Below, in pieces: positions 9,660 to 44,022 of a stretch of 44,022 nt of DNA (its first letter is position 1; each line of letters opens with the position of its first letter). The stretch lies in IMG/VR virus record IMGVR_UViG_3300047163_000078, positions 1-44,022 of that record, one strand, 5' to 3'. A model generated the notes under the pieces. It was not told the origin of the DNA. It saw only the letters and a program-made list of their open reading frames with translations, and made no database searches. The stretch is from a virus. The translations under genes were made by a program, and so were the position numbers.

Positions 9660-10190
9660 TCAATTCGCCGGCTCATCCGCCACGTCAGCCAACCACCACT
9701 CCGACTCGAGATTCCAGTCCGGGTGCAACCAGAACCGCCGCACGACGAATTCGAGCGCTCGCGTCTCCACGCACGACAACGATTTAACTCGCTGCAACAG
9801 CTCTGCGACGTGCTTATCCACCTTGGCCCGATCAACTTTGTTGCCCGGCGCGAGCCACTTATCCCCGAGGCGATTGAGCCGGTGAGCGTCCGCAATCTCT
9901 GCGGCGATAAATCCCAGCGATCCCATGCCGTTCGCTTGCTCAAGCAAATCGGGCCAGAGGTAGCCGTTGAGGGCGTCCGCGATCAGGCACCACTCAGCGG
10001 GGGAGAATCGCTTGGCGTTGGCCTCAATCGCGGCGCGGAGCGTTGCGGCCCAATTGACCACGCTACCGGCGATCGCGGCGGTGCGGTTGCCGGCATTGCC
10101 GGACTGGTCCTCGCAGGCTTGCGCCAGCCAGTCGGCGGCGGTGAGCGTGTCGGCGGTCAGGCGTAGGTGAGTGAGCGGCGTCGCGGCCAT
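9660..10190 (-). CDS. Hypothetical helical protein, last gene of the minus-strand cassette
   Basis: 176 residues starting MAATPLTHLRLTADTL. It is predicted mostly helical, Trp-rich (11 or so Trp), with no signal peptide or membrane segment. I do not recognise a family. It lies downstream of structured RNA copy A, whose 3' end is about 30 bases before this ATG, so its translation or stability may depend on that RNA. It runs against the flanking head genes, which suggests an accessory (moron) gene expressed from its own promoter, possibly during lysogeny. Confidence 0.6.
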   Translation of the reverse strand: MAATPLTHLRLTADTLTAADWLAQACEDQSGNAGNRTAAIAGSVVNWAATLRAAIEANAKRFSPAEWCLIADALNGYLWPDLLEQANGMGSLGFIAAEIADAHRLNRLGDKWLAPGNKVDRAKVDKHVAELLQRVKSLSCVETRALEFVVRRFWLHPDWNLESEWWLADVADEPAN

Positions 10191-10218: not shown

Positions 10219-10283
10219 CCGATAGGCGGGAGTCGAACCCGCCCTGTCCGGTTATCGGTTATTCGGCCGGGCTCAGACGGCCA
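10219..10283 (-). ncRNA. Structured RNA, copy A: hairpin plus tRNA-like acceptor/T-arm helix
   Basis: Read 5' to 3' on the minus strand: a GGCCG/CGGCC hairpin with an 8-base loop beginning TCTGA (78-82 with 65-69 in the 10200s), then an AATAA linker, then CCGATA pairing with TATCGG (10253-58 with 10219-24), a 9-base interior segment, and GGCGGG/CCCGCC closing a TTCGACT loop (10231-37). The last helix and loop are exactly a tRNA TpsiC arm, stacked on a 6-bp acceptor-like stem (12 bp together). No D or anticodon arm is present. Copy B (10597-10662) keeps all three helices with different bases, which is covariation evidence for structure. The hairpin overlaps the stop codon of the gene at 10273-10536. 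Confidence 0.7.
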
Positions 10284-10536
10284 GTTTCTTTCTTTGGATT
10301 TCGAAGCTCAATGCCCCAATGCGTTGAGCTTCTTTTGCCGCATACTCCTGAACGGCCTCAAAAAAGGCCGCACGACGCTGTTGCCTAGCTTCATACGGCG
10401 GACATCCTGGCCACGATGGCATCAGATAGCTGATGGTGTACCACGCTTGTTTGGCGAGCCAGTCAGCATTAACAAATCGACTGGCCTCGTAGTCCCAGAC
10501 CTGTCCAGGACGGCCGACACAAATCAGAGCTTCCAT
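10273..10536 (-). CDS. Hypothetical 87-residue protein of the minus-strand cassette
   Basis: Starts MEALICVGRPGQVWDYEASRF with a good GGAGG ribosome-binding site about 10 bases upstream. The middle is Trp-rich (NADWLAKQAWYTISYLMPSWPG) and the C-terminal half is a basic amphipathic helix. No family is recognised. Its stop codon TGA lies in the loop of RNA copy A, and RNA copy B ends about 60 bases upstream of its start, so the gene is framed by the two RNA elements. A CTCCCA/TGGGAG hairpin lies between copy B and this gene. Confidence 0.6.
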   Translation of the reverse strand: MEALICVGRPGQVWDYEASRFVNADWLAKQAWYTISYLMPSWPGCPPYEARQQRRAAFFEAVQEYAAKEAQRIGALSFEIQRKKLAV

Positions 10537-10596
10537 TTTTTTTCACTCCTCCGCTCCCAACCGCATGGCTGGGAGAAAACTAGGTTGGGGCGAAAT

Positions 10597-10662
10597 CCGC
10601 CGCGCGGGAGTCGAACCCGCGCGAGACCAATCGGCGGCGTTATTCCCGGTCGTCAGACCAGG
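10597..10662 (-). ncRNA. Structured RNA, copy B: hairpin plus tRNA-like acceptor/T-arm helix
   Basis: On the minus strand: hairpin CCTGG/CCGGG (one G-U pair) with an 8-base loop TCTGACGA, an AATAA linker plus two bases, CCGCCG pairing with CGGCGG (10632-37 with 10597-602), a 10-base interior segment, then CGCGGG/CCCGCG closing a TTCGACT loop. The architecture matches copy A, with changed but still paired helices and identical loop cores. An alternative 7-bp outer pairing (AATCCGC with GCGGATT, ends 10671 and 10594) would give a whole-tRNA-sized outline, but no normal cloverleaf forms inside it. The element starts 8 bases after the stop of the gene at 10670-10945. Confidence 0.7.
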
Positions 10663-10669
10663 CAGCGGA

Positions 10670-10945
10670 TTAACGAGATTCCCATTCGCGTTTTTCCGCT
10701 GGCTTGAGATCGGAATCCCCCAATTCCACGACGTAATATTCGGGCCGCTCCCCCGGCCAATCGCCAGTCGCGCGTAAGATTTCGGCGCGGGCCTCCGCAT
10801 CGGCGCGGTCCGCATATACGGTCGGTTCATAGCCAAAGATTGCGTCGCGCGGCATACCATCGTGCTTCACGCTCATGATTGCCCGGACGACAAAAAGAAC
10901 AGATGTTATTTGTTCGTTGATTTCTTTCAGGTTGGTCGCGGTCAT
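10670..10945 (-). CDS. Small hypothetical protein, paralogue of the next gene at its N-terminus
   Basis: 91 residues beginning MTATNLKEINEQI. The first 13 residues nearly match the start of the protein at 11055-11324 (MTATNLSLKEINEQI); the rest is unrelated (GYEPTVYADRADAEARAEIL, then YYVVELGDSDLKPAEKREWESR). The C-terminal part resembles small phage proteins that read like a beta-alpha-beta unit, but I cannot name it. The shared start comes from a duplicated DNA segment that also carries the ribosome-binding site GGAGACC. Its stop abuts RNA copy B. Confidence 0.6.
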   Translation of the reverse strand: MTATNLKEINEQITSVLFVVRAIMSVKHDGMPRDAIFGYEPTVYADRADAEARAEILRATGDWPGERPEYYVVELGDSDLKPAEKREWESR

Positions 10946-43775: not shown

Positions 43776-44022
43776 ATGACAAAAGACGAACTCAAACTCA
43801 TAATCGAAGCCCACATCCTATGGGTGAGCGATAATACAAAAGGAACCAGGGCCAACCTGTCCGGGGCCAACCTGTCCGGGGCCAACCTGTACGGGGCCAA
43901 CCTGTACGGGGCCAACCTGTACGGGGCCAACCTGTACGGGGCCAACCTGTCCGGGGCCAACCTGTCCGGGGCCAACCTGTACGGGGCCAACCTGTCCGGG
44001 GCCAACCTGTCCGGGGCCAACC
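43776..44022 (+). CDS. Pentapeptide-repeat protein, 5' part (runs off the end and continues at base 1)
   Basis: ATG at 43776, with AAAGGAAAATCAC in front. [25 protein letters not shown] is followed by repeats A-N-L-(S/Y)-G up to the end. The last bases of the window (GGGGCCAACC) repeat the first ten of the window, in a frame that fits joining through the repeat. The complete protein would have at least ~28 repeats plus the C-terminal DUF5758-like domain. The exact repeat number at the junction cannot be known from this contig. Confidence 0.8.
43851..44022 (+). repeat. 15-bp tandem repeat array (11 full units plus a partial)
   Basis: Continues the GGGGCCAACCTGTCC/TAC unit that begins the window. 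Both window ends lie inside this array. Confidence 0.95.

Follow-up and report, generated by a model that had tools for sequence, protein, structure and literature searches.

The element described here is a natural micro-pre-tRNA of about 40 nucleotides (~42 nt), in which an acceptor stem is stacked directly on a T-arm, and it is widespread in phages, chiefly those of Bacteroidota. That the family is real is near certain, and its members are rated here as a previously undescribed type of tRNA-like structure that works like a micro-pre-tRNA. These phage mini-tRNAs probably deceive the host enzymes that process tRNAs, so that these cut or cap the phage message at the element. Two copies are carried by IMG/VR virus record IMGVR_UViG_3300047163_000078, whose 44,022 nt were analysed in full and are called the window below.

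Two Copies in a Small Operon

The terminase, portal and head genes of the window are encoded on the plus strand, and copies A and B lie in a small minus-strand operon whose ORFs match no family. The features of this region are:

10219 to 10258, minus strand: core of copy A, micro-pre-tRNA-like; read directly and matched by covariance models R1 and R2
10264 to 10283, minus strand: stem-loop GGCCG-TCTGAGCC-CGGCC (10282-10265), 5' of copy A; accessory (folding z of the upstream 45 nt, −1.9)
10597 to 10637, minus strand: core of copy B; read directly and matched by R1 and R2
10645 to 10662, minus strand: stem-loop CCTGG-TCTGACGA-CCGGG, 5' of copy B; accessory (folding z, −1.7)
10554 to 10575, minus strand: strong stem-loop CTCCCAGCC-ATGC-GGTTGGGAG, between copy B and the next gene; accessory
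10670 to 10945, minus strand: 91-aa ORF upstream of copy B, with its TAA stop at 10672-10670; no family match
10273 to 10536, minus strand: 87-aa ORF between the copies; no family match
9660 to 10190, minus strand: 176-aa ORF starting 28 nt past copy A; no family match

The first-pass annotation had described two minus-strand copies of an acceptor/T-arm half without D or anticodon arm, each between co-directional genes. Both copies are present, fold as described and occupy such positions. In copy A, the acceptor strand CCGATA (10258-10253) pairs with TATCGG (10224-10219), with an extra A-T pair possible between 10259 and 10218. The bulge ACCGGACAG (10252-10244, 9 nt) holds CGG, and the T stem, GGCGGG (10243-10238) with CCCGCC (10230-10225), closes the loop TTCGACT (10237-10231). 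Copy B pairs CCGCCG (10637-10632) with CGGCGG (10602-10597), holds TGG in its bulge ATTGGTCTCG (10631-10622, 10 nt), and joins CGCGGG (10621-10616) to CCCGCG (10608-10603) around the same loop, TTCGACT (10615-10609). The acceptor and T-arm stack measures 12 bp in both copies, and the D and anticodon arms are absent. The three helices, the 5' hairpin included, had been noted to covary, and all keep pairing through changes on both sides between A and B; the hairpin loop is 8 nt long rather than the 5-nt TCTGA first read.

The TGA stop of the gene upstream of copy A (10275-10273) falls within the loop of the 5' stem-loop, which AATAA separates from the acceptor. The 5' stem-loop of copy B directly follows the upstream gene's TAA stop and is itself followed by AATAA, CG and the acceptor; the 45 nt downstream of this copy fold with a z of −3.7. 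The 87-aa ORF starts 60 nt past copy B and stops 14 nt ahead of copy A. No IMG/VR homologues of the window's small ORFs were found, the 176-aa ORF included, and a search with the window terminase returned only remote phage matches.

A tRNA Elbow Without D and Anticodon Arms

Across the family, the stack of well-paired elements spans 10-13 bp, mostly 12 or 13 (15 in one case), the bulge is mostly 10-12 nt long, and the T-loop reads TTCGANT. Every well-paired element (45/45) has a GG in the bulge, usually 3-4 nt in, with T or C before it and often T after it. In tRNA, G18 and G19 of the D-loop dock on the T-loop. The bulge GG occupies their place, which makes the element a tRNA elbow minus the D and anticodon arms; it should replace the D-loop, dock on the T-loop and form the elbow.

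The tRNA likeness continues beyond the stem on one side. After the stack, 36 of 59 elements have C74 and 52 of 59 have A or T at position 75, with CCA essentially absent, and in the tRNA genes of three element-carrying Bacteroidota genomes the counts are 38/38 for C74 and 35/38 for A or T at 75. The comparison set for both the 3' flank and position 1 is thus made up of Bacteroidota tRNA genes that may not be those of the window's host. The elements thus carry the host-type 3' flank, N73-C74-[A/T]75-A76. The two window copies continue after the stack with A-T-T-T and T-A-T-C, that is, without the C74 signature. In two phages that carry both elements and tRNA genes, the tRNAs end in the same N-C-T. 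CCA-less Bacteroidota tRNA genes (L197-L226) nearly always have C74 followed by A or T, and such a partial CCA may in its own right be a feature of processing.

The 5' side is different. A G1 paired to C72 is the base that RNase P favours and by which it is guided. Only 12 of 59 elements have G1, compared with 36 of 38 host tRNAs (p=7e-14); among phage tRNAs the share is 65%. With C74 and A/T75 kept and G1 lost, the 3' side of the element is tRNA-like and its RNase P side is not. The GG, the 3' signature and the G1 loss, all three missed by the first-pass annotation, together point more toward 3' tRNA processing (RNase Z, CCA addition) than toward RNase P.

A Covarying Family

A DNA pattern combining AATAA, GG and the T-arm hit 120 viral loci. 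A pairing descriptor, with tRNA genes removed, kept 22, three of which belong to the window's own record (the window itself and two pieces fetched again). Covariance model R1 was built from seven phage elements, all outside the window, chosen for equal length because MAFFT alignment of unequal ones misaligned the acceptor. It recovered copy B (E=3.7e-7) and copy A (E=4.6e-5) in the window, so that the two are no chance matches. Many other records gave several matches each (eight in the record of L103, five in L002, three in L004), usually on one strand per record, and at E<=0.0006 R1 yielded 39 elements in 25 loci. The improved model R2, in a group of freshwater phages, found 2-6 copies in each record; run unfiltered over the whole window, it scored copy A at 37.0 bits and copy B at 43.5 bits, with nothing else below E=1. 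Copies within one genome differ in their stems and share one shape. R2 also matched seven of 396 Bacteroidota genomes, four of the matches being tRNA-Leu genes, in which the long variable arm passes for the acceptor; these false positives were removed, so the bacterial counts of that search do not represent a prevalence.

The helices covary very strongly. Standard pairs fill 91.8% of the pair cells of the 39 elements, compared with 52.8% in shuffled controls and 41-50% when the partner strand is slid. Double-change cells number 179 versus 52, and the covariation score is 0.944 versus 0.176. Since this alignment was fitted to a model, tests free of it were added; the models were moreover seeded by a pattern holding GG and AATAA, for which the independent scans correct in part. 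The first model-free pattern, ACCCCA...GTTCGANTC...TGGGGT, fixed the acceptor arms and T-loop and found 8 sites in 7 viral records, compared with 0 for a scrambled 3' arm. All eight have [T/C]GGT in the bulge, although the query contained no GG. A second scan, with the acceptor TTCCC...GGGAA, gave 19 sites versus 1 in its scrambled control. About a dozen of these have a T stem of at least 5 pairs, the GG and the family's 3' flank, and the remainder look like chance matches in ORFs. Aligned sites from a lineage of transposable phages, in which several elements lie directly upstream of the transposase, have a fully (100%) paired T stem and 14 double-change cells versus 4.9. The search for further covarying copies in other viruses, which had been proposed as the test of the first reading, was thus passed decisively by covariance model and pattern scans alike.

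The hairpin and AATAA, initially taken to belong to what the copies share, were rejected as part of the family. Other elements lack them, and z falls below −1.5 in 14 of 53 upstream windows compared with 12 of 103 controls. Stem-loops are modestly enriched on the upstream side of elements (p=0.002), and on the downstream side the enrichment is weak (p=0.04).

Relation to Known RNAs

ARAGORN called no tRNA and no tmRNA in the window, and Rfam 15 at gathering score placed no family in the window or at the elements of nine loci, in agreement with the initial view that the family is undescribed. No description was found in Rfam or in the open-access literature, the search being limited to open-licence papers. 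A relaxed Rfam search of the window returned just the T-arm part of tmRNA, scoring 18.5 and 16.6 bits where the cut-off is 47. Identity with tmRNA (RF00023) was rejected because only this T-arm stretch scores; there is no whole-model match with a tag ORF and pseudoknots. Identity with tRNA genes was likewise rejected, since the elements form no cloverleaf, never overlap ARAGORN tRNAs and are unmatched by RF00005. What they keep of tRNA is the 12-bp acceptor and T stack, a T-loop of the form TTCRANY and the elbow with the D-loop GG.

The tRNA-like domain of tmRNA shares with the elements an acceptor and T-arm, the D-loop GG and the lack of a D stem and anticodon arm. In contrast, the elements have no tag frame, pseudoknots or encoded CCA, measure ~42 rather than ~350 nt and sit in mRNA spacers. 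Plant RNA virus tRNA-like structures and MALAT1/mascRNA are tRNA mimics inside a longer RNA that tRNA enzymes read; they have a pseudoknotted acceptor or a full cloverleaf and belong to RNA genomes or a nuclear lncRNA. The elements have another fold, lie in phage operons and give no Rfam match. Closest in form are micro-pre-tRNAs and model hairpins (PMC9141469, PMC11143913), likewise an acceptor and T-arm with ~12 bp stacked and no other arms. Those are laboratory constructs or guide/target duplexes, whereas the elements are natural, contain a conserved GG in the bulge and recur many times in phage genomes. RNase P sites are known in phage RNA, namely in T4 gene 32 mRNA, C4 antisense RNA and M3 RNA (PMC11143913). 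These are also phage transcripts cut by a tRNA enzyme, but single cases without a shared covarying fold.

Genomic Position

The elements lie mostly between genes. By location, 46 of 53 are intergenic, compared with 5.5 expected. Because AATAA in the first pattern biases that set toward TAA stops, positions were recounted on the 28 elements that do not match it, and 26 of these are intergenic (3.0 expected). With mechanical ORF calls, 48 of 53 elements have their nearest upstream gene on their own strand, and the median distances are ~9 nt to the upstream stop and ~37 nt to the next start. The elements are thus typically sense-strand, no more than about 20 nt from a stop codon and often multi-copy. 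In several loci (L058, L049, L061, L116 and L103), the acceptor begins with the final one or two bases of the upstream stop.

Other elements occupy leaders. The transposable Bacteroidota phages and Polaribacter phage P12002L have the element in a first-gene leader that has no nearby upstream gene on its own strand, and in one phage lineage it lies within the leader of the first early gene. Leader elements precede start codons by 13-40 nt. In one Bacteroidota genome, the element sits in the 16S-tRNA-Ile-tRNA-Ala-23S spacer, between tRNA-Ala and 23S rRNA (L161:1501-1543 and L166:1501-1543), in at least two, and probably three, rRNA operons. A DNA search of the ten other genomes of that family found no such spacer element.

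Two observations concern the sequence just upstream. In phage phiST (L242:1471-1505), a terminator-like hairpin and T-run end ~35 nt upstream of the element, so that the upstream message may end ahead of it. In six transposable Bacteroidota phage loci (L072, L258, L259, L261, L263 and L264), a conserved stretch resembling TTTGACA-n-CAAA-TAGTGATT directly abuts the element. It is possibly a promoter or operator; a promoter was suspected from its sequence and could not be established.

A Proposed Role in Message Processing and Its Alternatives

From the fold, family, positions and 3'-flank mimicry described above, we infer a cleavage, an acting enzyme and a benefit to the phage. The best explanation, which has about an even chance of being correct, is that the element is an mRNA processing or end-forming signal read by the host enzymes of tRNA 3' maturation, with RNase P optional. 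The element would fold in the transcript as a pre-tRNA mimic, to be bound and processed by host RNase Z and then by the CCA-adding enzyme, with RNase P possibly acting on the 5' side. The polycistronic message would be cut just 3' of the element. The upstream mRNA would then end in a tRNA-like structure that resists exonucleases, and the downstream mRNA would begin at a newly processed 5' end. The more specific proposal, that dsDNA phages end their mRNAs through built-in micro-pre-tRNAs after which RNase Z cuts and which the CCA-adding enzyme finishes, is a tentative one.

Biochemical precedent exists for both enzymes: tRNase Z(L) is as efficient in cutting a micro-pre-tRNA that has no D, anticodon or extra arm as it is on a pre-tRNA (PMC9141469), and RNase P cleaves model hairpins made of an acceptor and a T-arm (PMC11143913). 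Of four relevant genomes, three clearly have RNase Z. The rRNA-spacer copy adds to this, since the only obvious job for an element between tRNA-Ala and 23S rRNA is RNA processing. A weak point of the RNase Z reading is the C74 trailer, which is unfavourable for the eukaryotic enzyme, and the leader elements without a close same-strand gene upstream mean that the element cannot serve only to separate co-transcribed messages. The suggestion in the first-pass annotation that tRNA-processing or tRNA-binding proteins are recruited fits this evidence, except that the part assigned to RNase P is weakened by the loss of G1.

Full tRNA-style punctuation, with RNase P at the 5' end and RNase Z at the 3' end excising the element and splitting the message as in mitochondria, would account for the intergenic, sense-strand, multi-copy placement, for a fold that amounts to a minimal RNase P substrate and for the rRNA-spacer copy. 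It is nonetheless unlikely. The scarcity of G1 argues against RNase P as the main reader and makes full excision less likely, where stop-codon bases double as acceptor bases an exact cut by RNase P would impair the stop, and the leader positions leave no gene to split off. The mitochondrial system also has tRNA-shaped units between genes that abut or overlap stops, but it uses real tRNAs, whereas the elements cannot decode, belong to dsDNA phages and are without the RNase P guide base.

An uncut cis-element that acts as a barrier to exonucleases, attracts a tRNA-binding protein (EF-Tu, TruB, or RNase P as a binder) or tunes translation of the next gene ranks below punctuation and is improbable too. 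The leader positions ahead of start codons and the frequent neighbouring stem-loops would suit such a role, yet it leaves unexplained why the pre-tRNA 3' flank is imitated past the stem and why a copy sits in the rRNA spacer. Still more doubtful is a decoy acting in trans, a free mini-tRNA of ~42 nt that would titrate either an enzyme of the host or a defence system directed against tRNAs. The occurrence of several copies in a genome, differing in their stems and alike in shape, and conservation limited to the tRNA elbow and 3' end are what a decoy might show, but no dedicated small-RNA gene layout is seen, single copies are scattered between genes near stop codons, and the target would need to ignore the anticodon. 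Decayed or captured tRNA gene fragments, or att sites from tRNA 3' halves, are suggested by the likeness of the T-arm to such halves but are a very remote explanation already contradicted by the covariation. In dozens of unrelated elements the 5' strand of the acceptor covaries with its partner and keeps a constant spacing from it, scrambled controls gave no site or a single one, strand is fixed relative to genes and several copies occur inside one phage genome. Integron attC and tRNA-derived att sites would be strand-neutral DNA recombination sites without a conserved elbow, and the elements' fixed sense orientation and conserved T-loop and GG tend to speak against them.

Distribution and Significance

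Dozens of non-tRNA relatives lie outside the window, uncultured phages among their carriers. Cultured carriers are Cellulophaga phages phiST, phi13:1 and phi19:2 and the Polaribacter phage named above. Prophages of Flavobacterium cerinum and Flavobacteriales UBA1937 (three copies) and a Parabacteroides distasonis plasmid carry it as well, as does a phage whose terminase resembles those of Streptomyces phages (L118). The element occupies 43837-43878 of phiST (KC821604) and 1871-1912 of the plasmid (NZ_OY725781.1). The element is absent from Flavobacterium phages fF4, FCL-2 and 11b, Nonlabens P12024L, Bacteroides B40-8, Cellulophaga phi14:2 and three crAss-like phage records (PhiCrAssBcn1, cr106_1 and cr126_1); a match in crAss001 was discarded, as it looks like an ordinary tRNA gene.

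Mimicry of tRNA is well known in RNA viruses; for tailed phages, neither Rfam nor the open-access literature covered here yielded a minimal tRNA fold that recurs across operons. Gene regulation in Bacteroidota phages is poorly understood, and if tRNA enzymes read the elements, they would show how these phages split and protect polycistronic mRNAs by means of host machinery. They would also be the natural counterparts of the laboratory micro-pre-tRNAs that define RNase P and RNase Z recognition. Should end formation by RNase Z and CCA addition hold, it would be a general, previously unseen way to divide and stabilise bacterial transcripts, used once by a host as well, in its rRNA operon. The existence of cultured Cellulophaga and Polaribacter phages and of the Parabacteroides distasonis plasmid makes the idea directly testable.

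Two further observations were made. In one element-carrying phage (L101:2162-4003), a C-5 cytosine DNA methylase gene is split by an intein with a Hint domain. At L155:5336-5468, a tRNA gene directly followed by a DUF805b RNA match lies just upstream of a prophage transposase region.
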